Below, piece by piece: positions 2,012 through 40,122 of a DNA stretch of 40,360 bases (position 1 is its first letter; the number at the start of each line of letters is the position of its first letter). The position numbers and the translations under genes were made by a program. The notes beneath the pieces are model-generated. The model ran no database searches and was not told the origin of the DNA. It saw only the letters and a program-made list of their open reading frames with translations. Location: assembly GCA_030428395.1 (NCBI GenBank), contig JAUIDW010000015.1, forward strand, positions 1 through 40,360. The letters run 5' to 3'. Source of the stretch: a bacterium. Its GTDB lineage: Bacteria; Planctomycetota; UBA1135; GCA-002686595.

Positions 2012-2082
2012 GAGTTGCCGGGGTCGGGGGGCGCCGCTGTCCGGTCCGCCTCCCGGGAGACCCCGGAGGGAGGGAACACGGG

Positions 2083-5307: not shown

Positions 5308-5321
5308 AGGCGGCGAGGCCC

Positions 5322-14981: not shown

Positions 14982-16457
14982 TCAGGGCTCCGGCTCGTCC
15001 TCCGGCGGGATCCCGGGCAGCGCCTGCAGCTCCGGCGGCGGGCGCCAGCCCCCGCCGAGGGCCTCGAACAGCGAGATCAGCCGGGTGAACGTGCTCGCGC
15101 GCGCCAGGGCGACCTGGTCCTCGACCTGGAAGTTGGTGCGCTCGGCGTCGAGCACGGCCTGGTAGTCGACCAGGCCCTCCTCGTACTCGATGCGCAGGAT
15201 CTCGACCGACCGCGCGGACTGCGCGCGGGCGCGCTCGAGCACGCCGTAGCGCTCCTGCTCGTTGGCGAAGGCGTTCAGCGCCTCCTCGACCTCCTCGGCC
15301 GCCGCCAGCACGGTCTGCTCGTACTCGTACACCAGCCGCTCGGTCCGTGCGTCCTCGACGTCGATCGCGCGCAGCACGCGGCCGAAGGCGAAGAGGTTCC
15401 AGCGGAGGAAGGGCCCGACCGAGAAGCTCTTGCTGTCGCTGTCGAACAGGTCGCCGGACGAGGCGGTCTCGAAGGCGAACTCGCCGTCGATGCTGAACGA
15501 GGGGTAGAGCTCGCCCTCGGCCAGCCCGATGCGCGCGGTCTGCGCCGCCAGGCGGCGCTCGGCGCCGCGCACGTCGGGGCGGCGGCGCAGCAGCTCGTGG
15601 GGGATGCCGATCGCGATCCGCTCGGGCAGCGACGGCACGGAGGCCTCGCCGTCGAGCAGCTCGTCGAGGCTCCCGGGAAAGCCCCCCAGCAGCACGGCCA
15701 GGCGGTTGCGCGCGACGGCGACGTCGGTGTCGAGCGCCTCGAGCGTGGCCTCGGTCTGGTGCAGCAGCGTACGGGCGCGCGTCGCGTCGGCCTCGGACGT
15801 CAGCCCGGCCTCGAAGCGCGCGGTCGCGAGCTGCAGCGACGCGGACTGCGTGGCGATGTTCGACTGCGCGATGCGGATGCGCGCCTGGGCCAGGCGCAGG
15901 TCCACGTACGCGCGCGCGACCTCGGACTGCAGCAGCACGACGGCGTTGCGCCAGTCCTCGACGCTGGCCTCGAACTCGGCGGTGGCGGCCTCGAGTCCGC
16001 GGCGCAGCTTGCCCCAGAGGTCCAGCTCCCAGGTGGCCTCCAGCCCCAGGGAGTACAGCGTGCGGGTGTCGAACTGGAAGCCCGACACGTTGTTGTTGAC
16101 GCCGTTCTCGCTGTTCTTGAAGCGCCGCACCGAGCCCGTCGCGTCGAGGTCCGGGAAGAGCTCCGCGAGGCGCAGGCCGCGCTGAGCGCGGACCTCCTCG
16201 ATGCGCGCGAGCGCGGCGTACAGGCCGGGATTGCGTTCCATCGCGGCGTCGACGAGGGAGTCCAGCAGAGGATCGTCCAGCGCCTTCCACCACTGCGCGG
16301 CGACCTGCTCGTCGGTGGTCCACTGCGGCGGCAGGTCCGCCTCCCAGGAGGCGGGCACGTCGAGCTCGGGGCGCTCGTAGTCGGGGCCGACCTTGCAGCT
16401 CGCCAGGGCCACGAGGGGGATCAGCGCCCGGAGGGGGGGACGGACGGGGACGCGCAC
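14982..16457 (-). CDS. Outer membrane efflux/secretion factor, NodT/TolC family lipoprotein
   Basis: A 491-residue outer membrane factor, the channel component of tripartite efflux or type I-like secretion. I chose GTG 16457 as start (VRVPVRPPLRALIPLVALAS then Cys), which gives a short signal peptide with lipobox LASC; other GTG or upstream starts are possible. The mature protein begins KVGPDYERPELDVPASW, the NodT signature, and continues with WWKALDDPLLDSLVDAAMERN, LEATWELDLWGKLRRG, RAYVDLRLAQARI, LLRRRPDVRGAERRLAAQTA, PFLRWNLFAFGRV and YQAVLDAERTNF, the two repeated OEP domains. It is divergent from the LEPR-XLL gene across a 189-base intergenic region and may serve the adaptor proteins encoded downstream of that gene. 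No inner membrane pump gene lies next to it. Confidence 0.9.
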   Translation of the reverse strand: MRVPVRPPLRALIPLVALASCKVGPDYERPELDVPASWEADLPPQWTTDEQVAAQWWKALDDPLLDSLVDAAMERNPGLYAALARIEEVRAQRGLRLAELFPDLDATGSVRRFKNSENGVNNNVSGFQFDTRTLYSLGLEATWELDLWGKLRRGLEAATAEFEASVEDWRNAVVLLQSEVARAYVDLRLAQARIRIAQSNIATQSASLQLATARFEAGLTSEADATRARTLLHQTEATLEALDTDVAVARNRLAVLLGGFPGSLDELLDGEASVPSLPERIAIGIPHELLRRRPDVRGAERRLAAQTARIGLAEGELYPSFSIDGEFAFETASSGDLFDSDSKSFSVGPFLRWNLFAFGRVLRAIDVEDARTERLVYEYEQTVLAAAEEVEEALNAFANEQERYGVLERARAQSARSVEILRIEYEEGLVDYQAVLDAERTNFQVEDQVALARASTFTRLISLFEALGGGWRPPPELQALPGIPPEDEPEP

Positions 16458-16646: not shown

Positions 16647-19600
16647 ATGCCGCAACCCGAACCCGAACACCGCGCGGCCCGCGAGGCCGAGGACGCCCCG
16701 CCCGAGGAGGAGGCGGCCGAGGAGGAGACGGCCGAGGAGCCGCGCGCGCCGCGGGCCTCGGGGAAGTTCGGGGTCGAGTCGCTCGAGCCCCGCATCCTGA
16801 TGTCGGCCACGTGGGTCGAGGCCGAGCTGGGCGAGGAGGCGCTGGAGGAGGCGCTCGGCGACGACGCGGGTCAGGCCGAGGCGGAGGTCCTCGACGGGCT
16901 CGACTCGGAGAGCAGCCTGTTCGACGAGGGCGAGCTCGCGTCGCTCGAGGAGCTCGGCGCGGACTCCGACGACGGGGACGACGCCGCGGAGGAATCGGAG
17001 CCCGCCTCGACCGACGTCGCGCAGACCGCGGTGCCCAGCGTCACGCCGACGGGCGAGGGCTTCACCGCCGGCTCGCTGGGCGAGGACGAGGGCTCGCGGA
17101 CGGTCGTCTTCCTGGATCGCAGCGTGCCCGAGCTCGACGAGATGATCGCCGACCTGGACGCGCAGATCGCCGGCGGCCGCGACCTCGAGTACGTGGTGAT
17201 CGAGGCCGACCAGGACGGCATCGCGGTCGTGTCCGAGACGCTCGCGGGGATGGAGGGCGTCGACGCGGTGCACGTCGTGTCCCACGGGGACGAGGGCTCC
17301 GTGACGCTGGGCTCGGCCGAGCTCGACGGCGCGTCCCTGTCCGCCCGGGCCGACGAGGTCGCCGCCTGGGGGCACGCGCTGGACGCCGACGGCGACCTGC
17401 TGCTGTACGGCTGCGACCTGGCCGGCGACGCCGGGGGCGAGGCGTTCCTCGAGCAGCTCGCCGAGCTGACCCGCGCCGACGTCGCCGCCAGCGACGACCG
17501 CACCGGCGGCGAGGAGTCGGGCGGCGACTGGGAACTCGAGCACGAGGTCGGGGACGTCGACGAGGGCGTCGTCTTCAGCGCCGGCATGCGCGCGGAGTAC
17601 GCCGGCGCCCTGGGCGAAGTGCTGCAGGTGCCCGGGAGCGTCGCCGGCACCGAGGACCAGCCGGTCGAGCTGCCGATCGCGCTGGACCTGGAGCCCGGTC
17701 AGGAGGCGACGTCGATCGTCGTCGCGGGCGTCCCCGAAGGCGCCTCGCTGAACCAGGGCACCGACAACGGCGACGGCACGTGGACCCTGACGCCGGCGGA
17801 CCTGGACGGCCTCGAGCTGCTGCCCGCGCCGGACTCCGACGCGGACTTCGCGCTGACCGTCACGGTCGAGACGTCGACCGGGTCCACGGCGACGACGATC
17901 GACCGGACGAACGCGACCAGCACCGGCAACGGCTTCACCGTGTCGGGACGCACGATCCAGCCCGACGGGACGCTGTCCGACGCCGACCCGTCCCACGTGA
18001 CCCTGTCGAGCTCCGGCATCGGCGTCGCGGGCGACACCGGCGGACCGGGGTACCAGCTCGGCCACGACGTGTCCCGCGGCCTCTCCGAGGAGCTGCACGT
18101 CGAGTTCGACACGAGCGTGGAGCACGCCGAGGTCGAGATCGAGCGCGCCTTCGCGGGCGAGGGCGGCAGCGGGAGCGGCGAGCAGGGTCACTACCAGCTC
18201 TTCGAGGACGGCGTCCTCGTGGGCGAGGGCACCTTCGCGCCGACGAGCGGCCACCGGATGACCCTGAGCCTGTCCGTCCCCGGGGGCGGCACGTTCGACC
18301 AGGTCGTCTTCACCGCGACGGACTACTCGGGCGGCGCCAACGGCAGCAACGACTCCTCCGACTACCTCGTGAAGTCGGTCTCCTTCGAGCGCCCGGGCGA
18401 CAGCTCCAGCGAGTCGGCCACGATCCAGGTCTCCGTGGCGAGCGTCGCCGACGCGGCCGACCTGACCGCGAACGACGTGGCCGGCAGCGAGGACACGAGC
18501 ATCGCCCTGGACCTCGCCGCGAGCGTCACGGACGACTCCGAGACGATCACGGCCGTCACCGTCACGGGCGTCCCGGAGGGCGCCACCCTGAGCGCCGGCG
18601 TCGACCACGGCGACGGGACGTGGTCGGTCGACCCCACGGACCTCGACGGCCTCGCCCTAACGCCGCCGCAGGACTTCTCCGGCGACATGACGCTGGGGCT
18701 CGAGGTCACCACCGAGGACGGCGGCGACAGCACCACGACGTCCGAGTCGTTCACCGTCAGCGTCGCGGGCGTCGCCGACGTCCCGCAACTCGAGGCCTCG
18801 GCGGGCGACCCGGTCGCGGTCAGCGAGCCCGGCGTCGCCCCCATCGCCCACTGGACGATGGACGACGCCTACGGCTCGGTCACCGTCGTCGACGCGAGCG
18901 GCTCGAACGACGGCGAGTCGCGCAGCACGATCTCGGGCAACCGGGTCGACTTCGACCCCGGAGAGGGCCACGACGGCGGCGGCGCGGTCGAGTTCGACCC
19001 GGCGGACCGCACCTACGTCGAGGTGCCGCACGATCCGGTGCTCAAGCCGGAGTCGGGCGCGCTCACCCTCTGGATCAAGCCGGACGACGTCGACGGGCTG
19101 TACGGTCTCGCTTCGACCGACTCGATGCACTACGACGACGGTGGGCACTTCACCGCCTGGGTCGCCGACGGCGAGCTCCGGGTGCGCCTCCAGGGCACCG
19201 ACATCGACACCACGATCCAGGGCGGCAGCGTCCAGGAGGGCGCCTGGCAGCACGTCGCGATCACCTGGGGCGACGACGGTCTGCAGGTCTTCCTCGACGG
19301 CGGCCTGGTCGCGTCGGACCCGAGCTGGACCGGCGGTCTCGGCGGCAACGAGGAGCCATGGGTCCTGGGCGCGAACCAGTGGGCCAGCGGCGACGGCGTG
19401 GCCGACGAACTGCGCGACTTCTACGACGGCCAGATGGACGACGTCGCGCTCTACGGGGAGCAGCTCGACGCCGCCCAGATCGCGGAGCTCGTCGCCGCCG
19501 GGGTCGAGGGGCTCGCGGCCGGGGAGCAGCACACCGAGTACGCCCTGGACGTCGCGACCGCCGCCGCGGATGGCGACGGCTCCGAGGACGTGGTGATCAC

Positions 19601-22454
19601 GGTCGCCGGCCTTCCCGAGGGCGCCGCGCTGTCGGCCGGCACCGACAACGGCGACGGCTCCTGGACCCTGGAGCCCGCGGAGCTGGACGGGCTGACGCTG
19701 AGCGTGCCCTCCGGCGGGCCGGATTCGTTCGAGCTCGTCGTGACGTCGACCGCCACCGAGGCCGACGGCGACACCCAGACCGCCTCGACGACGCTGACCA
19801 TCGGCGCGGCCCCGATCGAGCAGGTCGACGCGAGCGGCGTCGAGGACACCGCGATCCCGCTGACCGTCACGCTGCCGGACGTCAAGCCGGACGACGAGAT
19901 CGTGATCGGCGGCGTCCCCGACGGAGCCGTCCTGAGCGCGGGTGTCGACAACGGCGACGGAACCTGGACGCTGACGCCTGCCGAGGCCGACGGCCTGACC
20001 GTCACGCCGCCCGCGGACTCGGACCTGGATTTCGACCTCACCGTCACGCTGCGCTCGACCGACGTGCAGACGACGACGGGGACGATCGACACCTCCAACG
20101 CAGGCGCGACGGGCCAGGGCTTCACGGTCGAGGCCCGCACGATCCAGAGCGACGGGACCCTCTCCGACCCGTCGGCCGACCACGTGCTCGTGACGAGCAG
20201 CGGCCTGGGCGTCTCCGGCAGCACCGGGGGACCCTCCAGCCAGCTCGGCTACGACACGAACCGGGACGTCTCCGAGGAGCTGCACGTGCGCTTCGACGCG
20301 GACGTCGGCTCCGCGACGGTCGAGGTCGGAATGCTGTACTCGAACGAGGGCGGGAGCGCCGAGCAGGGCCGGTGGCAGGCCTTCCAGGACGGTGTCCTGG
20401 TCGGCGAAGGGCTCTTCGCGCCCACCAGCGGCACGTCGATGACCGTCGACGTGGACCTCCCTGCGGGCACGACCTTCGACCAGCTCGTCTTCTCGGCCAC
20501 CGAGTTCACCGGCGGCACCGACGGCAGCGGCAACAGCAGTGACTACTTCGTCCGCTCCATCACCTACGAATCCGTCGAGACGACGACGGCCGACCGGGAC
20601 CTGGGCAAGATCCACGTCGAGGTCGTGCCCGACGCCGACGCGGCGGCGGTCGTCGCGAACGACGTCAGCGGCTCCGAGGACAGCCCGATCGCGCTGGACC
20701 TGACCGCGAGCGTCACGGACGACTCCGAGACGATCACCGGTGTCGTCGTGACCGGCGTGCCGGCCGGCGGCGAGCTGAGCCACGGCACGGACAACGGCGA
20801 CGGCACGTGGACGGTCGACCCGGCCGACCTGGGTTCGCTCGAGTTCACGGCGCCGGAGAACTTCAGCGGCACCGTCAACCTCGGAGTCGACGTCACGACG
20901 ACCGACGGGACGGACACCGAGACCACGAACTCCAGCTTCACGGTGACGGTCGGCGCGGTCGCGGACGAAGCCGCAATCGTCGCGAACGACGTCAGTGGCG
21001 CCGAGGACAGCCCGATCGGGCTCGACCTGACCGCGAACGTCACGGACGACTCCGAGACGATCACCGGCGTCGTCGTGACCGGCGTGCCGAGCGGCGGTGG
21101 GTTGAGCCACGGCACGGACAACGGCGACGGCACGTGGACGGTCGACCTGGCCGACCTGGGGGCGCTCAAGTTCACGCCGCCGGAGAATTTCAGCGGCACG
21201 GTGAGCCTCGGAGTCGACGTGACGACGACCGACGGCGCTGACACGGAGACCACGAGCTCCGGCTTCACCGTGACCGTGACGCCCGTGGCCGACGAGGCCG
21301 TGGTGGTCGCGAACGACGTGCGGGGGGACGAGGACACGCCGATCCGGCTCGACGTGGCGACGGGGGTGGGCGACGACTCCGAGTCGGTGCGCTCCGTCGT
21401 CGTGACCGGCGTGCCGGCGGGGGCGCTGCTGAGCCACGGGGTCGACCACGGGGACGGCACCTGGAGCGTGGATCCGGACGACGTCGGCGCTCTCGAGCTG
21501 ACGCCGCCGGAGGACTTCAGCGGCACCATCGAGCTGGGGCTCGAGGTGACCACGGAGGACGGCGCGGACGCGGAGACGGTGTCCACGAGCTTCTCGGTCA
21601 CCGTCGATCCCGTGGCGGACGGCGTGAACCTGGGCGTGGACGCGAGCAGCGGGACGGTGGGGGATCCGATCCCGCTGGGGGTGACGATCGAGGGGCTGGA
21701 CGTCGACGGGTCGGAGCACCACCACCTGCTCGTGGACGGTCTGCCGCCCGGGGTCTCGCTGACCGGGGGCGAGCGCATGGGGGACGGTACGTGGAGGGTG
21801 CCCGCCGGCGAGCTCGAGGGGCTCGCGATCGTGACCGACGTGGCGTTCGAGGGGGCGGACCTGTCGCTCGAGTTCTCGGTCGTCTCGACCGACGGCTCCG
21901 ACACGGTGGTGACGACGTTCGCGGAGGGCCCCGTGCTCCTGACGATCGCGCCGGACGAGCCGCCGGTGGACACGACGGCGGACGACGGGGAGGCGGGCGA
22001 CAACGAGCCGGGGTCCGACGACGGGTCGGACTGGCCGTCGGAGCAGGGCGACGCGGACCTCTACGAGGGCGTGTCGTTCGAGGAGGACCTGTTCGCCGGC
22101 AGCTCGGGTGCGCAGGCGGGCGAGGAGGCCGGCGACGACCCGGGAGGCGCGCGCGAGGCGATCGCGCTCGGCGCCACGCCGCGGATGGAGCTGCCCGACC
22201 CCGGGGACGGGCTCGTCCGGCTGTTCGCGCTCGACCCGGAGAGCGCGGCGCCGCTGGACGCGGAGGGACCGGACGAGCCGGGGCGCGCCACGCCCGCGGC
22301 CGGACCGGTCGTCGAGCCTCCCGCGGACGAGGGCGGCTCCCCCGCTGCCGCCGCGGCCCGCACCGCGGGCATCTGGACCCTCGTCGTGGGCCTGCTCCGG
22401 AACCTCACCGGCGCCTCCCCGGCGAGCAAGCACGACGACGACCGCAGACCGTAG
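16647..22454 (+). CDS. Giant LEPR-XLL / DUF4347 surface protein with LamG and cadherin-like repeats
   Basis: A 1,935-residue acidic protein. An Ala/Glu-rich N-terminus without a normal signal peptide is followed by FGVESLEPRILMSATW (LEPR-XLL motif at 46-54), the planctomycete-type N-terminal tag of very large surface proteins. DUF4347 spans ~150-285 with VHVVSHGDEG (His213) and LLLYGCDLAG (Cys256). Then come eight degenerate repeats with the core VPxGAxLSxGxDNGDGTW, two copies of a ~150-residue domain (GRTIQPDGTLSDAD and ARTIQSDGTLSDPS types), and one LamG/concanavalin-like domain at ~730-955 (IAHWTMDD, ALTLWIKPDD, HVAITWGDDGLQVFLDGG). The C-terminus is Pro/Glu-rich and ends with a short hydrophobic patch (GIWTLVVGLLRNL) and SKHDDDRRP. 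Likely a secreted adhesin-like protein. Its DUF4347 resembles HG...GC caspase-clan peptidases, discussed as a finding. First gene of a five-gene cluster. Confidence 0.93.
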   Translation: MPQPEPEHRAAREAEDAPPEEEAAEEETAEEPRAPRASGKFGVESLEPRILMSATWVEAELGEEALEEALGDDAGQAEAEVLDGLDSESSLFDEGELASLEELGADSDDGDDAAEESEPASTDVAQTAVPSVTPTGEGFTAGSLGEDEGSRTVVFLDRSVPELDEMIADLDAQIAGGRDLEYVVIEADQDGIAVVSETLAGMEGVDAVHVVSHGDEGSVTLGSAELDGASLSARADEVAAWGHALDADGDLLLYGCDLAGDAGGEAFLEQLAELTRADVAASDDRTGGEESGGDWELEHEVGDVDEGVVFSAGMRAEYAGALGEVLQVPGSVAGTEDQPVELPIALDLEPGQEATSIVVAGVPEGASLNQGTDNGDGTWTLTPADLDGLELLPAPDSDADFALTVTVETSTGSTATTIDRTNATSTGNGFTVSGRTIQPDGTLSDADPSHVTLSSSGIGVAGDTGGPGYQLGHDVSRGLSEELHVEFDTSVEHAEVEIERAFAGEGGSGSGEQGHYQLFEDGVLVGEGTFAPTSGHRMTLSLSVPGGGTFDQVVFTATDYSGGANGSNDSSDYLVKSVSFERPGDSSSESATIQVSVASVADAADLTANDVAGSEDTSIALDLAASVTDDSETITAVTVTGVPEGATLSAGVDHGDGTWSVDPTDLDGLALTPPQDFSGDMTLGLEVTTEDGGDSTTTSESFTVSVAGVADVPQLEASAGDPVAVSEPGVAPIAHWTMDDAYGSVTVVDASGSNDGESRSTISGNRVDFDPGEGHDGGGAVEFDPADRTYVEVPHDPVLKPESGALTLWIKPDDVDGLYGLASTDSMHYDDGGHFTAWVADGELRVRLQGTDIDTTIQGGSVQEGAWQHVAITWGDDGLQVFLDGGLVASDPSWTGGLGGNEEPWVLGANQWASGDGVADELRDFYDGQMDDVALYGEQLDAAQIAELVAAGVEGLAAGEQHTEYALDVATAAADGDGSEDVVITVAGLPEGAALSAGTDNGDGSWTLEPAELDGLTLSVPSGGPDSFELVVTSTATEADGDTQTASTTLTIGAAPIEQVDASGVEDTAIPLTVTLPDVKPDDEIVIGGVPDGAVLSAGVDNGDGTWTLTPAEADGLTVTPPADSDLDFDLTVTLRSTDVQTTTGTIDTSNAGATGQGFTVEARTIQSDGTLSDPSADHVLVTSSGLGVSGSTGGPSSQLGYDTNRDVSEELHVRFDADVGSATVEVGMLYSNEGGSAEQGRWQAFQDGVLVGEGLFAPTSGTSMTVDVDLPAGTTFDQLVFSATEFTGGTDGSGNSSDYFVRSITYESVETTTADRDLGKIHVEVVPDADAAAVVANDVSGSEDSPIALDLTASVTDDSETITGVVVTGVPAGGELSHGTDNGDGTWTVDPADLGSLEFTAPENFSGTVNLGVDVTTTDGTDTETTNSSFTVTVGAVADEAAIVANDVSGAEDSPIGLDLTANVTDDSETITGVVVTGVPSGGGLSHGTDNGDGTWTVDLADLGALKFTPPENFSGTVSLGVDVTTTDGADTETTSSGFTVTVTPVADEAVVVANDVRGDEDTPIRLDVATGVGDDSESVRSVVVTGVPAGALLSHGVDHGDGTWSVDPDDVGALELTPPEDFSGTIELGLEVTTEDGADAETVSTSFSVTVDPVADGVNLGVDASSGTVGDPIPLGVTIEGLDVDGSEHHHLLVDGLPPGVSLTGGERMGDGTWRVPAGELEGLAIVTDVAFEGADLSLEFSVVSTDGSDTVVTTFAEGPVLLTIAPDEPPVDTTADDGEAGDNEPGSDDGSDWPSEQGDADLYEGVSFEEDLFAGSSGAQAGEEAGDDPGGAREAIALGATPRMELPDPGDGLVRLFALDPESAAPLDAEGPDEPGRATPAAGPVVEPPADEGGSPAAAAARTAGIWTLVVGLLRNLTGASPASKHDDDRRP
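20640..21620 (+). repeat. Three tandem 327-bp units inside the LEPR-XLL gene
   Basis: The marker GTCGCGAACGACGT recurs with its GAAC ending at 20660, 20987 and 21314, an exact 327-base (109-residue) period. Units 1 and 2 are almost identical over long DNA stretches, which points to recent duplication; unit 3 is more diverged. Each unit encodes one cadherin-like repeat ending in SFTVTV-type strands. Confidence 0.85.
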
Positions 22455-22517: not shown

Positions 22518-22928
22518 ATGCTCGACCACCCCGACCACGACGACCTGTTCGGCGAGAGCTCCCAGGCGCTGCTGCGCGAGCTGGAGAAGAACACGTCGTC
22601 GAACATCCAGAAGATGCGCGCGCACGAGCGGATCGCGGTCCGCGCCAAGGTCGTGCTGCGCCCCGGCAGCCTCAGCCAGCGCGACGCGTGGAGCCTCGAG
22701 GGCGTCACGGGGGACATCTCGCGCGGTGGCGCCAAGGTGCTCATGCCGCGCCCGGTGTTCGTCGGCGACGTGTTCCAGGTCGCCTTCGACCCGGAGGTCC
22801 TGGCCGTGCCGCCGCAGCTCTGCCTGAGCCAGTGGTGCCGCACCGTGCGCGGCGACGCGTTCGAGTGCGGGCTGTCCTTCTTCTCCCCGATCGACCTCGC
22901 CGCCGCCCTGCGCGAACCGGGCACCTGA
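22518..22928 (+). CDS. PilZ domain protein (c-di-GMP receptor candidate)
   Basis: A 136-residue cytoplasmic protein, ribosome site CAGGAAACCGAGAG before ATG 22518. After a helical N-terminus (~1-35) it shows RIAVRAKVVL (the RxxxR arm) and DISRGGAKVLM (the D/NxSxxG arm), the two c-di-GMP-binding motifs of PilZ domains, followed by GDVFQVAF and a beta-rich end. It sits between the giant surface protein and the adaptor genes, 63 bases after the former, so c-di-GMP may control assembly or export of that protein. Binding is predicted from motifs only. Confidence 0.85.
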   Translation: MLDHPDHDDLFGESSQALLRELEKNTSSNIQKMRAHERIAVRAKVVLRPGSLSQRDAWSLEGVTGDISRGGAKVLMPRPVFVGDVFQVAFDPEVLAVPPQLCLSQWCRTVRGDAFECGLSFFSPIDLAAALREPGT

Positions 22929-22980: not shown

Positions 22981-24852
22981 ATGCAATCCCCCGAGCTTGC
23001 TCGAGCCGCCGACCCCGGCGAGCTCTTCGACGTGGTCGAGGAGATCGGCCGCCTCGAGCACGAGGCGCCGTCGGTGGACGAGTTCTACCGGCGTGGACTC
23101 GAGCGGATCGCCCGCCACTGCGGCGCCGGGCTCGGCGCCCTGCGGGTCGAGTTCCCCGGCCGGCACCTCGACGCGCGCCACGCGCCCGACGCGCTGCACG
23201 CCGAGGCCTGGATGCAGCAGCTGCAGACCTCGCTGCTGCACGCCCAGGTCGAGGGTCAGGCCCTGGGCGAGGTCGTGCGCGTGCCTTCGACCGGGCAGGA
23301 GGTCGCGCTGCTCGCCGTGCCGATCCACGCGCCGGGCTCCTCGGGCCGGGGCGCGCTCGGGCTCGTGCTCGCGGGCGGGCCGCGGGCGATGGTCGAGGCG
23401 AACCTCGCCGAGCTGCGCGCCCTGGCCGGCCTCCTGGACCTGGCGTGTCCGCAGCCGCGCGGGACGGCGACCGCGACCTCGGTCGACGCCGCCACCGAGG
23501 GCGTCGGCGCGGCGAGCAAGGCGGCACGCTTCAAGGACGCGCGCGAGCTGGCCTTCGCCCTGACGAACGGCCTGCGCGCGAAGCTGGACTGCGAGCAGAT
23601 CGCGCTCGGCAGCGTGCGCGGCGCGTCCGTGCAGGTCCTGTCGATCTCGGGGCTCGACGAGCCGAAGCTGCGCGACCTGGGCACGCTCGACCTGCGCCAG
23701 GCGATGGAGGAGTGCCTGGACGCGGACGCGACGATCGTCAGCCAGGACGCCGGCACGTGGTCCGACGACGAGCCCTCGTCGCGCTTCGCGCTCCATCAGC
23801 AGTGGCGCGCCGCGGCGGGGCGCGCGTGCGTCGCCTCGATCCCGCTGCGCGCGGGCGACGGCTGCGTCGGGATCCTCAGCCTGCGCCGGCCGCACGGCCA
23901 GCCGTTCACGCGGGACGAGATCGAGGCGGTGGAGAAGCTCGTCGGCTCGATGGGGCCCGCGCTCGAGCTGCTGCACCGCGCCGGCCGCGGCCTGGGGCGG
24001 CACGCCGAGGACGCGCTGCGCGCCCTCGTGCGCGAGGCGCTGGCGCCCGCGCGGTACGGCCGCAAGGTGCTTGCCGCGGCGGGCCTCTCGTTCGCGGCGT
24101 GGTTCTTCCTCGGCACGACGGCGCACGAGGCGGTCGTGCCCTGCCGCCTCCGGCCGCGGGAGACGATCCAGTTCAGCGCGCCCTTCGAGGAGCGCATCGC
24201 CGAGAGCACGGTCCGCCCCGGCGACGCCGTGAAGGCCGGCGACCTGCTCGTGCGGCTGTCCACGGACTCGCTCGAGCTCGAGCGCCGCCAGCTCGAGGCG
24301 GAGCTCGAGGTCCACCAGGTCGAGGTCGACCAGGGCGTCGCCGCGGGCGAGTGGGTGCAGGCCAGCCTGAGCAAGGCGCGCATGGGGCTGCTCGAGACCC
24401 GGCTCGAGGCCGTGGTGCGGCGCATCGAGGAGTCCAGCATCCGCGCGGCCGTGGACGGGATCGTGCTGCGCGGCGACCTGACCCACCAGATCGGCCAGCG
24501 CGTCCCGCAGGGCGAGCCGCTGTTCGAGGTGGCGCCGCGGCTCGACATGCACCTTGAGCTGGAGCTGCCCGAGGACGCCGTCGCCGAGGTCGCGCCGGGC
24601 CAGACCGTGCGGTTCGCCTCGAACGCGCGGCCGGACGCGGCGCTCGCGTTCGACCTCCAGCAGCTCGCGCCCGCCGCCGAGGTGCGCGAGGGCCGCAACG
24701 TGTTCGTCGCCGAGGCGCGCGGCACCGCCGAGCTGCCCGCCTGGGCCCGCCCCGGCATGGAGGGCGTGGGCAAGGTGTCCCTCGGTCGTCGCCCCGTCTG
24801 GCGCGCGGCCTTCGAGAAGGTCGTCGACTCCCTCTACCGGATGTGGCTGTGA
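22981..24852 (+). CDS. GAF domain - HlyD-type membrane fusion protein
   Basis: A 623-residue inner membrane protein. The long cytoplasmic N-terminus (1-355) has a first GAF-like region (~10-150; GLERIARHCGAGLGALRVEF) and a clearer GAF domain (~180-335; LAFALTNGLRAKLDCEQIAL, VASIPLRAGDGCVGILSLRR, FTRDEIEAVEKLVGSM). A single TM helix lies at ~362-377 (VLAAAGLSFAAWFFLG). The periplasmic part is an HlyD/AcrA-type adaptor: a lipoyl half motif (FEERIAESTVRPGDAVKAGD), a coiled coil (LELERRQLEAELEVHQVE), the second lipoyl half (IRAAVDGIVLRGD) and a beta-barrel region. Joining a ligand sensor to an adaptor in one chain implies signal-gated secretion, which is inference. It ends overlapping the next start (GTGA). 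No ribosome site is evident. Confidence 0.87.
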   Translation: MQSPELARAADPGELFDVVEEIGRLEHEAPSVDEFYRRGLERIARHCGAGLGALRVEFPGRHLDARHAPDALHAEAWMQQLQTSLLHAQVEGQALGEVVRVPSTGQEVALLAVPIHAPGSSGRGALGLVLAGGPRAMVEANLAELRALAGLLDLACPQPRGTATATSVDAATEGVGAASKAARFKDARELAFALTNGLRAKLDCEQIALGSVRGASVQVLSISGLDEPKLRDLGTLDLRQAMEECLDADATIVSQDAGTWSDDEPSSRFALHQQWRAAAGRACVASIPLRAGDGCVGILSLRRPHGQPFTRDEIEAVEKLVGSMGPALELLHRAGRGLGRHAEDALRALVREALAPARYGRKVLAAAGLSFAAWFFLGTTAHEAVVPCRLRPRETIQFSAPFEERIAESTVRPGDAVKAGDLLVRLSTDSLELERRQLEAELEVHQVEVDQGVAAGEWVQASLSKARMGLLETRLEAVVRRIEESSIRAAVDGIVLRGDLTHQIGQRVPQGEPLFEVAPRLDMHLELELPEDAVAEVAPGQTVRFASNARPDAALAFDLQQLAPAAEVREGRNVFVAEARGTAELPAWARPGMEGVGKVSLGRRPVWRAAFEKVVDSLYRMWL

Positions 24853-26981
24853 GCGAGGCCGCCGAACCGAGCCTGGCCGGCCGCCTGGCCGACGTGGTCG
24901 TGTCGCTGCGCTCCGAGCTGCGCGTGACCCGGACGGTGTTCCGCGGGCAGCCGAGCTACATCGTCCGCGACCCCGTCACGTTCCAGTCGCACCGCCTGGC
25001 GCCGGAGGAGTACCAGGTGTTCCTCGCGCTGGGCAGCGACCGCCCGCTGGCCGAGATCTACCGCGAGCTTTGCGCCGACGGCCGCGCCGAGCCGGGGGAC
25101 GAGGAGGACCTGTGCCACTTCGTGCTGCACCTGTACCGCCTCGGGCTCCTGAACCTGCCGATCCCCGACCACTCGAGCCTGTACCGGCGGTTCGAGCGCA
25201 AGCACGGCCTGCAGCGGCGGCAGAAGCTGCTCGGGTTCCTGTTCGTGCAGGTCCCGCTGCTGGCGCCCGACGCGTTCCTCGACCGCACGGTGCGGTTCGT
25301 GCGCCCGCTGTTCACGCGCGCGGCGTTCGTCGCGTGGTGCGTGCTGATGGCCGCGATGCTGGGAGTCGTCGCGGCGCGGTGGCGCGACCTGACGGCCCCG
25401 CTGCTGACCTTGCTGGACCTCGGAAACCTGCCGTGGCTCGCGGGGATCCTCGTCGCGCTCAAGGTGCTGCACGAGCTCGGCCACGCCTACGCCTGCAAGG
25501 TGTTCGGCGGCCGGGTGCCCGAGATGGGAGCCCTGTTTATCGTCGGGACGCCGCTGGCCTACGTCGACGCCTCGGCCGCCTGGGGCTTCCCCGGCAAGCT
25601 GCACCGCGTCGTCGTCAGCCTCGCGGGGATGTACGTCGAGGTCGCGATCGGCGCCGTGGCGCTGTTCGCGTGGGCCCTGACCGACGCGTCGTTCGTGAAC
25701 AGCCTGGCGTATCAGACGTTCATGATGGCGACGGTCGTGACCGTGCTGTTCAACGTCAACCCGCTGATGCGGTACGACGGCTACTACGTCCTCGCCGACC
25801 TGGTCGAGGTCCCCAACCTGCGCGCGCGCAGCCAGGCGCGGGTGGTGGGCTGGCTGAAGCAGATGGCCCTGGGCCTGCCCGGGCCGCAGGACGGCACGCC
25901 TGGGGGTCTGGGCGCGTTCCTGACGGTGTTCGGCGCGGCCTCGGCGGTCTACCGGTTCTTCCTGGTCGTCGGCATCTGCGCCCTGATCGCGGCCAAGGTC
26001 TACTTCCTCGGCGTGGCGCTGGCCGGGTTCTACCTGGCGACGACGGTGGGGGGCACGCTGTGGAAGGCGGGGCGCTACCTGTGGCGCTCCGAGGAGACCG
26101 CGACGGTGCGCGCGCGTGCGGCCGTCGTCGGCGTGCTGGGGGCCGTGCTGTTGCCCGCGGCCGTCGTGGCCGTGCCGGTGCCCCTGCCCGCGCGGCCGGT
26201 GGGCATCGTGACGGCCAGCGAGGAGACGGTGCTGCGCAACCTCTCGCCGGGGTTCGTGCAGAGCGTGGAGGTCCGCGTGGGCGACGTGGTCGCGCCCGGC
26301 GAGCCGCTGGTGCGCCTGGCGAACGCCGAGCTGCACGAGCGCGTCGCGGAGGCGCGCGCGGAGCTCGACCTGCTCGAGCTCGAGATCCACCAGGGCGCCG
26401 TGGTCGACCGCCGAGTGGCGCGCCAGAAGGAGACCCGCCGCGGGTACTTCGCCGACGTGCTGGGCCGCGCCGTCGAGCGCATGCAAGGCCTCGACGTCGC
26501 CAGCGCGGACGGGGGCACGCTGCTACGGCTGGATTGCCCGCGCGCGCCGGGGACCTTCCTCGGGGAGGGCAGCCCGATCGGGCTGCTCGGACGCGGGCCG
26601 TGGGTCGGGCGCTTCCTGATCGACGAGGAGTCCTTCCCCGGCCTGCGCGTCTCCGTCGGCGACCGCGTGCGCTGCCGCGCGGCCAGCGACCCGACGCGCG
26701 CCTTCGAGGGGCGCGTCGTGTCGCTCGCCCCCGTGGCGAGCCGCGAGGTCGTCCAGACGGCCCTGACCAACCTCGGGGGCGGCGCGATCGTCGTCGACCC
26801 CGAGACGCAGCGCTCGGACCGCCCGCACTTCGAGCTCGTCCTGGCCTTCGCCGAGGACGACCGCGAGCACCTGCGCCACGGCCTCACGCTGACCGCCGAG
26901 GTCGACGCCGAGGCCCGCACGATCGCCCGCCACGTCTACCTGAGGATCCTGTCCTTCCTGGACGAGCTGCGTCTGGGATGA
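24849..26981 (+). CDS. PqqD-like / M50 metalloprotease / HlyD-type fusion protein
   Basis: A 710-residue polytopic protein; I chose GTG 24849 because it overlaps the previous stop as GTGA (GTG 24843 is the alternative). Residues ~25-105 (VTFQSHRLAPEEYQVFLALG; LAEIYRELCADG; FVLHLYRLGLL) look like a PqqD/RRE-type peptide-binding winged helix. Several TM helices follow. HELGHA (208-213) and NPLMRYDGYY (304-313) are the HExxH and NPxxxxDG zinc-site motifs of M50 site-2-type intramembrane proteases. After ~residue 435 comes an adaptor module with the half motif VQSVEVRVGDVVAPGEPL, a helical hairpin and a beta domain. Such PqqD-M50-HlyD fusions are annotated in planctomycetes, but I know of no defined function. 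It could bind, cleave and pass on an exported protein, with the LEPR-XLL protein as obvious candidate. Confidence 0.88.
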   Translation: MSEAAEPSLAGRLADVVVSLRSELRVTRTVFRGQPSYIVRDPVTFQSHRLAPEEYQVFLALGSDRPLAEIYRELCADGRAEPGDEEDLCHFVLHLYRLGLLNLPIPDHSSLYRRFERKHGLQRRQKLLGFLFVQVPLLAPDAFLDRTVRFVRPLFTRAAFVAWCVLMAAMLGVVAARWRDLTAPLLTLLDLGNLPWLAGILVALKVLHELGHAYACKVFGGRVPEMGALFIVGTPLAYVDASAAWGFPGKLHRVVVSLAGMYVEVAIGAVALFAWALTDASFVNSLAYQTFMMATVVTVLFNVNPLMRYDGYYVLADLVEVPNLRARSQARVVGWLKQMALGLPGPQDGTPGGLGAFLTVFGAASAVYRFFLVVGICALIAAKVYFLGVALAGFYLATTVGGTLWKAGRYLWRSEETATVRARAAVVGVLGAVLLPAAVVAVPVPLPARPVGIVTASEETVLRNLSPGFVQSVEVRVGDVVAPGEPLVRLANAELHERVAEARAELDLLELEIHQGAVVDRRVARQKETRRGYFADVLGRAVERMQGLDVASADGGTLLRLDCPRAPGTFLGEGSPIGLLGRGPWVGRFLIDEESFPGLRVSVGDRVRCRAASDPTRAFEGRVVSLAPVASREVVQTALTNLGGGAIVVDPETQRSDRPHFELVLAFAEDDREHLRHGLTLTAEVDAEARTIARHVYLRILSFLDELRLG

Positions 26982-26995
26982 ATCGGAGAACCGAC

Positions 26996-27847
26996 ATGTT
27001 GCGCCCGCCCCTGCCGCTCGTCGCCGCCGGCCTCCTGGCCGCGCTCCCGCTGCAAACCTCCGCGACCGGGCAGTCGCCCGCGCCGACCCCGCGCGGCCAG
27101 ACCGAGGTGTTCCTGCACGGCATCGTCCAGCCCGTCCACCAGGCGCGCGTCTCGGCGCAGATCGCCGCGCGTCTGGACGGCTTCGCCGTCGAGGAGGGCG
27201 ACCGGGTCGAGCGCGGCGACGTGCTCGTGGAGCTGGACGCCAGCGTGGCGCGCGCGTCGGTCGCGGCGGCGCGGACGGCGGCGGCCTCGACCGCCAAGCT
27301 GGATTACGCGCGCGCCGAGGTCGAGCTGGCGGAGACCACGCTCGCGCGCCACCGGCGCGCGCAGGAGCGCGGCGCGTCCAACGCGAGCGCCATCGAGGAG
27401 GCCGAGGCCTACCTGCTGCAGGCGCGCGCGTCGCTGCGCTCGGCCCAGGAGGCGGTCGAGCAGGCCCGCGCCAACCTGGCGCTGGAGGAGGCCAAGCTGG
27501 ACCAGTACACGCTGCGCGCGCCCTTCGCGGGCACGGTGGCGCGCCTCTTCAGCGAGCCGGGGCAGACCGTCACGCCGGCGCAGGAGCTCGTCCACGTGGT
27601 CGACCTGTCGTCGCTCGAGGTCGAGCTGTACCTGCCGTTTTCGCTGTGGGGCGAGCTCCAGGCCGGCGAGGCCTACGACCTGCGGGCCTCGGCCCCGGTC
27701 GGGGGCGCGCTGACCGGACGGCTGGTGTACGTGGACCCGGTCCTGCAGTCCGCCACGCGACACATGCGCTGCGTGTTCGAGATCGACAATGCGGGCGGCG
27801 CGCTGCCCGCCGGGTTCACGGTCGAGCTGGTGCACCCCGGGCCCTGA
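26996..27847 (+). CDS. Periplasmic adaptor subunit, HlyD/RND membrane fusion family
   Basis: A 283-residue exported adaptor. ATG 26996 has a ribosome site (CGGAGAA); ATG 26978 overlaps the previous stop as ATGA and would add six residues. The signal peptide is MLRPPLPLVAAGLLAALPLQ with an ATG-Q region after it. Lipoyl half 1 is ARLDGFAVEEGDRVERGDVL, then an alpha-hairpin (~80-165, rich in Ala/Glu/Arg), lipoyl half 2 (YTLRAPFAGTVARLFSEPGQ) and a beta-barrel (LEVELYLPFSLWGELQAGE). It is shorter than typical RND adaptors because the membrane-proximal domain is small. Last gene of the LEPR-XLL cluster, ending seven bases before the convergent ABC1 kinase gene. Confidence 0.88.
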   Translation: MLRPPLPLVAAGLLAALPLQTSATGQSPAPTPRGQTEVFLHGIVQPVHQARVSAQIAARLDGFAVEEGDRVERGDVLVELDASVARASVAAARTAAASTAKLDYARAEVELAETTLARHRRAQERGASNASAIEEAEAYLLQARASLRSAQEAVEQARANLALEEAKLDQYTLRAPFAGTVARLFSEPGQTVTPAQELVHVVDLSSLEVELYLPFSLWGELQAGEAYDLRASAPVGGALTGRLVYVDPVLQSATRHMRCVFEIDNAGGALPAGFTVELVHPGP

Positions 27848-29297: not shown

Positions 29298-29896
29298 GGC
29301 TTCGACCTCGCTCCGGTGTCCTCGCGGAGCCCTCGCACGAAGAGCCCCATCGATCGATCCAGGAGCGCCAGCGTGGCCTCCTGGTGGTCGGTGTCGTCCC
29401 GCGTCCAGAAGTCGAGGACGCCGAGGTACAGCGTCCACCACAGGTGCAGGCTCAGCGTCGCGTCGCCGTCCAGCCCGGCGGCGACGAGCCAGCGCTCGAT
29501 CCGCTCGAGCTGGCGCGCGCGGAAGCCGCCGTCGAGCTCGCCCGAGCGCACCGGGCTCGCCCCCGCGTCCAGCACCCCGCGCAGCCAGCCCCGGCAGGGC
29601 CGGAGGTGGCGCAGCTGGGTGGCGACGAAGGCGAAGAGCGCCTCCTCGAGCGTCTCGTCCTCGCGCCGTGTGCGGTCGAACTCGGCCTCGGCCGCGGCGA
29701 CGCCCTCGACGATCAGCGCCATCCCCAGCGCCTCCTTGCCGGGGAAGTAGTTGAAGAGGGTGCCCGTCCCGACCCCCGCCCGCCGGGCGATCCCGCGGGT
29801 CGTCGCGGCGGCGAACCCGACCTCGCCGAACAGCTCCCGGGCGGCGTCCAGCAGCCCCTGGCGGGTCCTCTCGCGGGTCTCTCGGGTCACTCGCAC
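29294..29896 (-). CDS. TetR/AcrR family transcriptional regulator
   Basis: A 200-residue repressor starting at GTG 29896 (GTG 29890 is possible; no ATG is available). The N-terminal helix-turn-helix is typical: RERTRQGLLDAARELFGEVG, then ATTRGIARRAGVGTGTLFNYF with PGKEAL. The rest is the helical ligand-binding and dimerisation domain, with a Trp-rich helix (LSLHLWWTLYLGVLDFW) that may line a hydrophobic pocket. The gene is coupled to the ABC1 kinase and preceded by a strong promoter flanked by palindromes, so autoregulation is expected. Confidence 0.92.
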   Translation of the reverse strand: MRVTRETRERTRQGLLDAARELFGEVGFAAATTRGIARRAGVGTGTLFNYFPGKEALGMALIVEGVAAAEAEFDRTRREDETLEEALFAFVATQLRHLRPCRGWLRGVLDAGASPVRSGELDGGFRARQLERIERWLVAAGLDGDATLSLHLWWTLYLGVLDFWTRDDTDHQEATLALLDRSMGLFVRGLREDTGARSKP

Positions 29897-29911
29897 GGCT
29901 CGTCCTCGAAA

Positions 29912-29973
29912 GTGAACGTGCTCAGTATAGCCGCGACCGCCCGCCTGGCAATGGATAAAGTGAGCATGATCAC
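29912..29973 (-). promoter_or_regulatory. Operator pair around the TetR promoter
   Basis: Two related sites face each other: GTGAACGTGCTCA (29912-29924) and TGAGCATGATCAC (29961-29973); one matches the reverse complement of the other at 11 of 13 bases. The second, extended by one base (29960-29973), is itself a near-perfect palindrome (6 of 7 pairs). They lie at the downstream edge of the -10 box and just upstream of the -35 box, where a TetR dimer would block RNA polymerase. Confidence 0.65.
29924..29951 (-). promoter_or_regulatory. Sigma-70-type promoter of tetR-ABC1 operon
   Basis: On the minus strand TTGCCA (29951-29946) and TATACT (29929-29924) are 16 bases apart, close to consensus and the best promoter of this type in the window. 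Transcription would begin near 29917, about 20 bases before GTG 29896. The region is much less GC-rich than its surroundings. Confidence 0.7.
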
Positions 29974-30038
29974 AAAAGTCCGCCCCGCCGCTGCGCCCCC
30001 TCGAAGCGGGGCCGAGCGAGGCCCCTCCGCGCAGGGGC

Positions 30039-30115
30039 GCCGGCTCCAAGTGCCGTCGGGCGAGGGGGATCCGACGGGAGTCGGCCCCCGGATCCACACG
30101 GAACCCAGTCAGTCC
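30039..30115 (+). repeat. Intergenic repeat copy C
   Basis: Aligns base for base with copy A (58 of 77 identical) and carries the exact core CCACACGGAACCCAGTCAGT at 30094-30113, reading toward the kinase-TPR gene. Further upstream, 30000-30038 contains hairpins (GCCCC with GGGGC; CCCCT with AGGGG). The stretch between the TetR promoter and the kinase start otherwise holds no gene. Confidence 0.8.
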
Positions 30116-30124
30116 GGATCCCGG

Positions 30125-30130
30125 TACGAT
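30125..30130 (+). promoter_or_regulatory. -10-like box TACGAT before the kinase-TPR gene
   Basis: TACGAT lies 25 bases before ATG 30155, and the bases after it (CCGGGCCGGA) are identical to those after the TAGAAT of the kinase at 10230. The two kinase promoters therefore share their -10 to +10 region. No clear -35; the repeat core ends 12 bases upstream. Confidence 0.4.
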
Positions 30131-30154
30131 CCGGGCCGGACGGGGGCGTCGGAC

Positions 30155-33115
30155 ATGCACGAGCCGGAGGCGAAGAGCGTCCTCGGGGAGGCCCTGGAGG
30201 TCTCGCCCGGGGAGCGCGCGGCGTGGGTCGAGGCGCGCTGCGGGAGCGACGTCGAGCTCCGGGCGCGGGTGCAGGCCCTGCTGGACGCCCACGACCGGTT
30301 CCCGGGCGTGCTCGGATCGCCGACGCTGGCCCGACCCGCCTCCGCCGCGGCCGCGCTGGCCGCGCGCGGCGAGTACGCCGAGGGCGATCGCGTCGGCCCG
30401 TACCGGATCCTGCGCCTGGCCGGGCGCGGGGGCTTCGGCACCGTGTACCTCGCCGAGCAGCGCGAGCCGGTCGAGCGCCGCGTCGCCCTGAAGGTGCTCG
30501 ACGCCGGCGCGAGCTCGCAGGCCGCCCTCGCCCGCTTCGACGCGGAGCGCCAGGCCCTGGCGCGCATGGAGCACCCCGCCATCGCCCGCGTGTACGACGC
30601 GGGGACGACGGACTCGGGCCGCCCCTACTTCGCGATGGAGTTCGTGGACGGACGCCCGATCACCGAGCACTGCCGCGAGGAGGCGCTCGAGCTGGCCGAC
30701 GTCCTGCGCCTGTTCCGCGTCGTGTGCCAGGCCGTGCACCACGCGCACGAGAAGGGCGTCGTCCACCGCGACCTGAAGCCCTCGAACGTGCTCGTCACGA
30801 CGGTCGACGGCCAGCCGTTCCCGAAGGTCATCGACTTCGGCATCGCCAAGGCGATCGACAGCCCGCTGACGGCGCACTCGGTCCTTTCGGTGGAGGGCCA
30901 GCTCATCGGCACGCCGGCGTACATGAGCCCCGAGCAGGCGGCGGGCGAGATGGACGTCGACACGCGGACGGACGTGTACGCGCTGGGCGTGCTGCTGTAC
31001 GAGCTCGCGTGCGGGCAGACGCCCTTCGAGGCCGGCTCGCTCGGTTTCGCCGGCCTGCTGCGCGCCATCGCCGAGAACGACCCGCCGCCGCCGAGCCGCC
31101 GCCGCGCGGCCGATCCGGAGGCCTCGACGATCCGGAGCGTGCCCGCCGACCTCGACTGGATCGCGCTGCGCTGCCTCGAGAAGGACCGCGCCCGCCGCTA
31201 CGAGAGCGCTTTCGCGCTGGGCCGCGACGTCGGCCGGTTCCTCGGCGGCCTGCCGGTCGAGGCGGCGCCGCCCAGCGTGGGCTACCGCCTGCGCAAGCTC
31301 GCGGCTCGCCACCGCGTGGCGGCGGTGGCCGCCAGCCTGTCCCTGCTCGCCCTCGTCGGCGGCTCGATCGGGACCGGGGTCGGGCTGGTGGGCGCGCGCC
31401 GGGCCAACGCGCAGCTGCAGGAGCTGATCGGCGAGCTGCGCGACGAGACCGAGCGCGCGCGGCTCGCCGAGGAGCGCGCCGCGAACCAGGCCCGCCGCGC
31501 GCTCGAGCAGAGCGAGGTGGCGCGCGCCGTCAACGACTTCCTGACGCAGGACCTGCTGGCCTCGGCGGTGCCGTCGGCCGAGCGGGGCCGCGGCCGCGAC
31601 GTGCTGCTGCGCGAGGTGCTCGACGTCGCCGCGGAGCGGCTCGAGGCGGGCGACCGCTTCGCCGGCAAGCCGGTCGTCGAGTCCGCGGTGCGCGCCATGC
31701 TCGGGATCGTGTACGGCGAGCTGGGCGAGCTCGAGAAGGCGCTCGTGCACACCCGTCGCGCCGCCGAGCTGCGCGCGGCGGCCCTCGGCCCCGACGCCCC
31801 CCTGGCGATGGACTCGCGGAGCCGGCTGGGCGGCCAGCTGCGCCTGCTCGAGCGCTTCGACGAGTCCGAGGAGGTCCTCGTGCCGCTGCTCGAGCGCATG
31901 CGCGTCGAGCTGGGCCCCGCGGCGCGCCCCACGCTGCTGACCGCGCAGCGGGTGGGCATGCTGCGCCGCGACCAGGGGCGCCTGGAGGACGCGTACGAGC
32001 TGCTGCGCTCGAGCCACGAGCTCTCGGTCGAGCACCACGGTGCCGAGTCCGCGGTCACGCTCGAGCTGCTCGGCGCCCTCGCCATCGCGGCCCAGCAGAC
32101 CGGGCGCTACGAGGAGGCGGAGCGCCGCTTCCGCCGGGCGCTCGACCTGCGCCGCGCGGCCCACGGCGACGGCAACCCCGACACGCTCGCGGCCACGGTG
32201 AACCTCGCGACGTTCCTGCGCGCCACGCACCGCTTCGACGAGGCGGAGTCCCTGCTGCACGAGGTGCTCGAGCAGCACCGCGGCGTCCTCGGAGACGACC
32301 ACCCCGCCACCGGGACCACGCTCTACAACCTGGCGGCGCTGGAGCTCGAGCGCGGCCACGCGGAGGAGGCGGAGCAGCTCGCCCGGCGCGCCCTGGCGAT
32401 CTTCGAGGCGGCCTTCGACGACGACAACGCCAGCGTCCTGCGCACGCTGTCGCTGCTGGCCCGGAGCCTGGAGGGGCGCGCGGACCCCGCCGAGGTCGAG
32501 GCGCTCCACCGGCGCGCGTACGAGGCCGCGCTGCGCTCGCGGGGCCCGGACCACCCGCTGACGGACTCGCGCCGCAAGGACCTGGCGGGGTTTCTCTACC
32601 ACCATCCCGGGCACGCCGAGGAGGTGCGCCGGCTGCTCGAGCAGAGCTACGAGACGCAGCGGAGGCGCCAGGGACCGACGCACCCGACGACGCTGACCGC
32701 GCTCGAGAACCTGTCCCTGCTCGCGCGACGCGACGGGCGCACCGACGAGGCCGAGGCGATGCTGCTGGAGGCCCTGGAGGGCTTCCGCGCGCGGCTCGGT
32801 TCCGACCACGTCGAGACGCTGAAGACCGAGAGCTCGCTGGCCGGGCTGTACCTGGACTCCGGTCGGCCCGCGGAGGCCCTCGAGCGCGCGCGGCACACCG
32901 TCGAGGCGGCCGAGGGGAGCCTGGAGGAGGACGACTACGACCTGGCGCGATTCCGGCTGCGGCTCGGGCTGGCGCTGGAGGACCTCGGCCGCCGCGGGGA
33001 GGCGTACGAGGTGTTCGCCGAGACCCACGCGGTCCTCGTGCGCTCGCGCGGCGAGGACGATCCGCTGGCCGCGTTCGCCGCGGGCCACATGGCGGTGCTC
33101 GAGCCCGAGGACTGA
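30155..33115 (+). CDS. Ser/Thr protein kinase with TM helix and TPR repeats
   Basis: A 986-residue Hanks-type kinase. The N-terminal ~70 residues (PGERAAWVEARCGSDVELRA and VQALLDAHD) are the short helical leader typical of planctomycete kinases. The kinase domain (~82-350) has GRGGFGTVYLA, Lys113 in VALKVL, HRDLKPSN with Asp206, DFG at 227-229 and GTPAYMSPEQ. A TM helix lies at ~388-412 (VAAVAASLSLLALVGGSIGTG). Beyond a coiled coil there are about ten TPR-like units (for example GRYEEAERRFRRALDLRRAA, DEAESLLHEVLEQHRGVLGD), the kinesin-light-chain type, to the end. The TPR part probably binds a protein partner outside the cytoplasm. Start ATG 30155 is the first reasonable one; the upstream open frame is repeat sequence. 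Confidence 0.93.
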   Translation: MHEPEAKSVLGEALEVSPGERAAWVEARCGSDVELRARVQALLDAHDRFPGVLGSPTLARPASAAAALAARGEYAEGDRVGPYRILRLAGRGGFGTVYLAEQREPVERRVALKVLDAGASSQAALARFDAERQALARMEHPAIARVYDAGTTDSGRPYFAMEFVDGRPITEHCREEALELADVLRLFRVVCQAVHHAHEKGVVHRDLKPSNVLVTTVDGQPFPKVIDFGIAKAIDSPLTAHSVLSVEGQLIGTPAYMSPEQAAGEMDVDTRTDVYALGVLLYELACGQTPFEAGSLGFAGLLRAIAENDPPPPSRRRAADPEASTIRSVPADLDWIALRCLEKDRARRYESAFALGRDVGRFLGGLPVEAAPPSVGYRLRKLAARHRVAAVAASLSLLALVGGSIGTGVGLVGARRANAQLQELIGELRDETERARLAEERAANQARRALEQSEVARAVNDFLTQDLLASAVPSAERGRGRDVLLREVLDVAAERLEAGDRFAGKPVVESAVRAMLGIVYGELGELEKALVHTRRAAELRAAALGPDAPLAMDSRSRLGGQLRLLERFDESEEVLVPLLERMRVELGPAARPTLLTAQRVGMLRRDQGRLEDAYELLRSSHELSVEHHGAESAVTLELLGALAIAAQQTGRYEEAERRFRRALDLRRAAHGDGNPDTLAATVNLATFLRATHRFDEAESLLHEVLEQHRGVLGDDHPATGTTLYNLAALELERGHAEEAEQLARRALAIFEAAFDDDNASVLRTLSLLARSLEGRADPAEVEALHRRAYEAALRSRGPDHPLTDSRRKDLAGFLYHHPGHAEEVRRLLEQSYETQRRRQGPTHPTTLTALENLSLLARRDGRTDEAEAMLLEALEGFRARLGSDHVETLKTESSLAGLYLDSGRPAEALERARHTVEAAEGSLEEDDYDLARFRLRLGLALEDLGRRGEAYEVFAETHAVLVRSRGEDDPLAAFAAGHMAVLEPED

Positions 33116-38529: not shown

Positions 38530-40122
<1,593 letters not shown>

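Follow-up and report, generated by a model that had tools for sequence, protein, structure and literature searches.

A PqqD-like/M50/adaptor fusion as the probable tag receptor in a proposed export route for giant surface proteins

Which protein reads the LEPR-XLL tag, carried by proteins whose open frames can run to well over 10,000 codons, and what passes through a secretion-like module, present in several phyla, whose cargo and role have been open since its description in 2015? Both questions are raised by a 40,360-nucleotide stretch of planctomycetotal DNA (GenBank assembly GCA_030428395.1, contig JAUIDW010000015.1; hereafter the window), which encodes a LEPR-XLL protein and a single-chain fusion of a PqqD-like domain, an M50 metalloprotease and a periplasmic adaptor. 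Here we propose that, within a tag-directed module exporting giant surface proteins, this fusion probably combines three roles in one chain: receptor in the inner membrane, processing protease, and adaptor in the periplasm. The proposal builds on the domain architecture of the fusion, its intact zinc site, the linkage of its gene and its co-occurrence with tagged proteins, each of which is observed directly. Linking module and tag by way of a specific reader domain opens both questions to experiment and, if true, extends the tag recognition of ribosomally synthesized and post-translationally modified peptides (RiPPs) to the export of giant surface proteins.

The module was described by Kamneva, Poudel & Ward (2015; PMC4452313) as a set of secondary SecA_DEAD, M50-HlyD, GAF-HlyD and HlyD proteins, with SecA_DEAD proposed as the ATPase and the M50 protein as the pore of a system whose role was 'completely unknown'. 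The main text of that paper names neither an RRE (RiPP recognition element)/PqqD domain nor a cargo, and the words PqqD and giant are absent from it; among the carriers of the module it names an operon of Methylobacterium extorquens AM1 (META1p2399-2402). LEPR-XLL is mentioned in passing in published literature (full-text search), and no reader of the tag was found in the literature searched; the NCBIfam text for NF012209 and supplements lay outside that search, so that a prior remark is possible. New in this study is the assignment, by computation alone, of an RRE as reader and of LEPR-XLL giants as cargo to this known module.

Domain architecture of the fusion protein

The fusion and its parts are located as follows.

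24849..26981, + strand: RRE(PqqD-like)-M50-MFP (membrane fusion protein) fusion, 710 aa
24894..25163, + strand: RRE/PqqD-like domain, residues 16-105, predicted cytosolic (AlphaFold2 model, structure match)
25317..26171, + strand: M50 intramembrane metalloprotease core with seven transmembrane helices, residues 157-441
25470..25484, + strand: HELGH zinc motif, residues 208-212 (H, E and H invariant in 80/80 sequences)
25758..25781, + strand: NPLMRYDG, residues 304-311, with the third zinc ligand D310 (invariant in 80/80)
26172..26927, + strand: complete periplasmic adaptor (MFP) domain, residues 442-693 (MacA, MexA and EmrA matches)

The frame opens at a GTG (24849; an alternative GTG lies at 24843) and closes 710 codons later with the TGA that ends at 26981. 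Its start shares the sequence GTGA with the stop of the upstream GAF-HlyD gene, and its stop (26979-26981) shares ATGA with the ATG of the next adaptor gene; because of these overlaps, the three adaptor-bearing genes are taken to form one translationally coupled operon. More than 500 relatives were found, so this architecture is not unique to the window, and the majority of them are located in the module described by Kamneva et al. Searches of the fusion protein against Pfam returned weak M50 and HlyD matches and nothing else. The top NCBIfam match was a daptide M50 protease (residues 118-398, E 1e-43), at 149.9 bits against the 300 required by the daptide HExxH equivalog NF041824, and a match to the epipeptide LiaK/YydH family likewise fell under its cut-off.

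The structure was modelled with AlphaFold2 from an alignment of 80 full-length fusion sequences sharing 26-43% identity with the window protein (mean pLDDT 88.5, pTM 0.74). In the model the N-terminal domain comprises three strands and three helices in the winged three-helix RRE fold. Residues 16-105 match leader-bound RRE/PqqD-like structures with Z scores of 10.5-11.0 over 83-86 residues, the best being TbiB1 (5v1v; Z 11.0, rmsd 2.4, 86 residues), with lasso B1 (6jx3) at Z 10.9. The window's own N-domain has no Pfam match; PqqD (PF05402) matches 15 of 34 homologous N-domains, with a best E of 4.5e-9, and some relatives are labelled 'PqqD family peptide modification chaperone' at NCBI. A PDB sequence search with the N-domain placed PqqD at E 0.09. 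Designed TIM barrels topped that search (E ~3e-5 over ~50 residues) and were judged chance matches. RREs bind RiPP leader peptides as an extra beta strand; the binding of a peptide tag is a known role of this fold.

The zinc site was assessed by fold match and conservation. RseP matches the M50 core with Z 10.3-10.6, the RseP-like fold lying at residues 189-320, and the core carries the two parts of the site-2 protease motif, HExxH in a transmembrane helix and a distal Asp within NPxxxxDG. Residues H208, E209, H212, N302, P305 and D310 are invariant in all 80 full-length sequences, a conservation that, judged from the alignment, is far beyond chance at these levels of identity. Seven transmembrane helices separate the RRE from the adaptor, and the N-terminus is therefore predicted, from model and hydropathy, to be cytosolic and the adaptor periplasmic.

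A preliminary description of this locus had proposed a three-part chain of 710 residues with a winged-helix N-terminus, zinc motifs HELGH and NPLMRYDG within the transmembrane core, and an HlyD-type half motif at the C-terminus. Reading frame, model and structure matches agree on the single three-part chain, and both the winged helix and the zinc motifs are borne out; we looked for a missing winged helix and for a disrupted zinc site and found neither. The C-terminal part needs correction, as residues 442-693 form a complete adaptor of the HlyD/MacA class, with both lipoyl half-motifs, alpha-hairpin and beta-barrel, that matches MacA with Z 16.4.

Co-occurrence of the fusion with tagged giant proteins

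We next consider the link to LEPR-XLL proteins that the same description had drawn, which gains support from phylogenetic profiles in two phyla and from operon structure. A fusion was counted as present where a match covering the M50 region had E < 1e-48, a cut-off chosen in this analysis. Among 196 Planctomycetota genomes, 46 carry the fusion and 12 LEPR-XLL, with both in 11 (p 4e-7, phylogeny ignored); the figures for 232 gammaproteobacterial genomes are 29, 18 and 16 (p 5e-15, phylogeny ignored), and the association thus recurs in two phyla separately. LEPR is present in 14 of 17 core gammaproteobacterial fusion genomes, and in nine genomes selected because they carry the fusion (isolates plus one from an uncultured organism) LEPR giants are present without exception, their open frames reaching 15,050 codons. 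Tagged gene and fusion often lie within one operon: on a Pontibrevibacter plasmid the order is LEPR-XLL (~10,600 aa), DUF3467, GAF-MFP, fusion, SecA-like, MFP, with gene ends that overlap or nearly abut. In one genome (G239), 17 LEPR matches on scattered contigs are set against two fusion loci, and these dispersed proteins therefore present a pattern of tag and machine.

The candidate cargo of the window consists of the following features.

16647..22454, + strand: candidate cargo, a LEPR-XLL/DUF4347/cadherin-like repeat protein of 1935 aa
16767..16808, + strand: LEPR-XLL tag SLEPRILMSATW, motif from residue 46 (NF012209)
17103..17612, + strand: DUF4347 (PF14252, E 5e-50)
22341..22421, + strand: C-terminal hydrophobic motif GIWTLVVGLLRNLTG, of the same kind (LWGLxRGLGG) as in loci of its branch

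The window tag passes the NF012209 cut-off of 17 bits with a score of 17.2; in the genome search its E was 5.6e-4. The distance between the upstream stop and the tag could be determined for 23 tagged loci and is at most ~120 residues except in the window, where the sole upstream Met stands 45 residues before the motif; the stretch preceding the tag is usually basic, and in the window acidic. The N-terminal 60 residues of the cargo contain neither a hydrophobic core nor a Sec signal peptide, and because of this ordinary Sec targeting is unlikely. Near the other end of the giant, LWGLxRGLGG followed by a polar tail was seen in ~20 loci of the window branch with a visible end (L010-L039, upstream of PilZ or MFP), and could represent a second sorting or retention signal.

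The tag varies with the fusion branch. DUF4347 proteins beside diverged fusions (L174, L175, L176, L177 and L178) carry LEERIVLDA, LEERVLFDA or LEDRVLFEA, and four such LEER/LEDR tags gave no match in the NCBIfam library. A search of the 196 genomes with a LEER model is not independent evidence, because its strong matches came from the training genomes, save for a second copy in G138. Strong DUF4347 matches were found in seven genomes, all with the fusion.

We also record that long proteins near fusions assigned to tier 2 (L206, L207 and L212) start with the related motifs LEVREVFDA, LESRQLLDG and LEQRIMLDA; Planctomycetota may thus use a wider range of such tags. Within DUF4347, HVVSHG and LLLYGCD resemble, on reading the sequence, the His-Gly and Cys motifs of clan CD (caspase-like) peptidases. 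The domain may therefore allow the cargo to process itself; the locus contigs searched yielded no homologues for structure modelling.

Neighbouring genes and branches of the module

Four further genes of the window bear on the proposed conduit and its control.

22981..24852, + strand: GAF-HlyD partner, with tandem GAF, one transmembrane helix and MFP (Pfam GAF, HlyD)
26978..27847, + strand: third MFP, a periplasmic adaptor of the resistance-nodulation-division (RND) type (TIGR01730, E 5.5e-37, over cut-off)
22518..22928, + strand: PilZ protein (PF07238, E 5.1e-8)
14982..16400, - strand: TolC-family outer membrane factor (OEP; PF02321, E 3e-49, two repeats), start approximate

Across 80 fusion loci from Planctomycetota, Pseudomonadota, Thermodesulfobacteriota, Verrucomicrobiota and others, TolC and two further MFPs recur in the neighbourhood, with GAF-HlyD accompanying the fusion in 76 and MFP in 54. 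The GAF-HlyD model (pLDDT 88.2) shows two GAF-like domains, a transmembrane helix at 359-377 and an MFP. The window proteins that were scanned contain no ATP-binding cassette (ABC) transporter domain, and neither an ABC nor an RND pump family recurs across the 80 loci; the HlyB-type ABC transporter that defines classical type I secretion is thus absent from the window locus. Motifs usual for cyclic di-GMP (c-di-GMP) binding, RxxxR (RAHER) and DxSxxG (DISRGG), can be read in the PilZ protein, which suggests c-di-GMP control of the export operon, as for other giant adhesins.

In a tree of the RRE and M50 region three groups emerge: LEER/Azospirillum, a 33-member group to which the window belongs, and a larger one of 49 members. 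Among the loci in the tree, a SecA-like gene adjoins the fusion in the 49-member group only, lying directly after it (E ~1e-98 to SecA_DEAD). This ATPase is truncated and lacks the later region of SecA, because its alignment to the housekeeping protein stops near residue 660; Walker A and DEAD motifs are kept, three aligned copies excepted. In those three (L069, L071 and L066; two Roseobacteraceae and one gammaproteobacterial metagenome-assembled genome) both motifs are lost, while position and C-terminal end are retained; they may be degenerate or purely structural motors. The window group has instead PilZ (23 loci) and the LWGLxRGLGG-type cargo C-terminus. The window genome contains a single SecA_DEAD match, in a 1053-aa frame on another contig and none among the window neighbours, an absence that is not absolute because the genome is 92% complete; a genome of the same family (G016) also has one match. 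As the SecA-like gene stands beside the fusion in one tree group, and as these two genomes have a single match each, it falls outside the universal core, which is the tag, RRE-M50-MFP and further adaptors.

SapC (PF07277) and DUF3467 recur in loci of the SecA type (L079, 12225-13082; L082, 5685-6494; L085, 6835-7194). The flanks of the window (10230-12950, 1998-8273, 29384-33115 and 38530-40122) encode several Ser/Thr protein kinases and a GAF-sigma54 activator, with one kinase frame containing an FGE-sulfatase domain.

Proposed route, alternatives and known systems

In the route that we infer, the cytosolic RRE would bind the N-terminal LEPR-XLL tag, whether that of the 1935-aa cargo or of another protein so tagged, as an added beta strand, and pass it to the M50 site in the membrane, where it would be cleaved or gated. 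The cargo would then enter TolC through an adaptor ring to which the fusion, GAF-HlyD and the RND-type MFP all contribute. For the majority of lineages in the larger branch, export would be driven by the truncated SecA-like ATPase encoded beside the fusion; because this motor is missing at the window locus, the window branch would need housekeeping SecA/SecYEG or another energy source. The full version of this reading, in which LEPR-XLL and LEER are sorting tags read by the cytosolic RRE on an ABC-free route for giant proteins that in the window runs without a SecA paralogue and under c-di-GMP control, is plausible while falling a little short of probable. The preliminary description had a single polypeptide bind, cleave and present its client. 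Predicted topology and the LEPR link fit that interpretation, and the notion that one chain does it all is incomplete, because the larger branch mostly has the SecA-like ATPase next door and the window's branch does not.

Several observations weigh against the proposed role. The window tag clears its cut-off by 0.2 bits (17.2 against 17), no motor is present at the window locus, and the co-occurrence p-values take no account of phylogeny. In Planctomycetota, tier-2 fusions occur in many genomes that give no match to NF012209, itself a weak model of 24 residues; no tagged giant gene was seen near the fusion in seven tier-2 loci of one family (f30; L202-L205, L208-L210); and three genomes (G187, G320 and G443) carry LEPR without a strong fusion match. 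Furthermore, transport is not a known function of M50 proteases.

Each of three other explanations accounts for part of the evidence. The M50 domain could be a mere inner-membrane pore that replaces an ABC channel, with SecA_DEAD as ATPase and proteolysis vestigial (Kamneva et al. 2015). The transmembrane helices, the lack of an ABC transporter at the loci and the motifs retained by all but three of the aligned SecA-like neighbours speak for such a pore, but an HExxH and distal Asp invariant in 80 of 80 sequences would not be expected of it, a SecA-like gene is absent beside the fusion in the window and LEER branches, and site-2 protease folds are not known as protein conduits, so that we regard it as unlikely. 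Slightly less likely still is an enzyme of regulated proteolysis or maturation, in which the RRE would recruit and the M50 core trim, export would proceed by Sec or another route, and the MFP would merely anchor the protein to TolC. The RRE fold, the intact catalytic site and the closest NCBIfam relatives, which are RiPP maturation metalloproteases (daptide, E 1e-43, and LiaK/YydH, both under cut-off), are in keeping with a maturase; three MFPs and a frequent TolC gene at the locus, however, favour a dedicated conduit, and a Sec signal peptide is missing from the window cargo.

The patchy distribution of the fusion, its likely lateral transfer and the many tier-2 fusion genomes without a LEPR match would also suit an efflux or peptide exporter unrelated to LEPR proteins and linked to them through co-transferred surface islands. 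This we consider very improbable, since the association appears in two phyla separately, dispersed cargo genes included, and the tag variant shifts along with the fusion branch.

Taken as a receptor, protease and adaptor for tagged giants, the fusion can be compared with several known systems. Residues 16-105 share the fold of the RRE/PqqD family (TbiB1, lasso B1), but this RRE is fused to a membrane protease and an adaptor, and it is proposed to bind a giant protein's tag rather than a RiPP precursor. With site-2 proteases (RseP, MJ0392 S2P) and the daptide and epipeptide M50 maturases it has in common HExxH, NPxxxxDG and a transmembrane core; it differs in the addition of RRE and MFP, in that no PDZ domain was found in the fusion, and in scoring under the daptide and LiaK equivalog cut-offs. 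Lipoyl domain, hairpin and barrel of its C-terminus are those of membrane fusion proteins (MacA, MexA, EmrA, HlyD), here following a seven-helix protease core instead of a single transmembrane or lipid anchor. The locus resembles the module of Kamneva et al. in combining M50-HlyD, GAF-HlyD and HlyD without an ABC transporter (OEP being present there sometimes), and departs from it in having no SecA-like gene and in possessing PilZ and a LEPR/DUF4347 cargo. Finally, whereas the window locus has no HlyB-type ABC transporter and its tag is N-terminal, it shares with the type I secretion of giant adhesins (LapA/RTX type) an MFP-TolC conduit, a giant repeat cargo free of a Sec signal and, through PilZ, a hint of c-di-GMP control.

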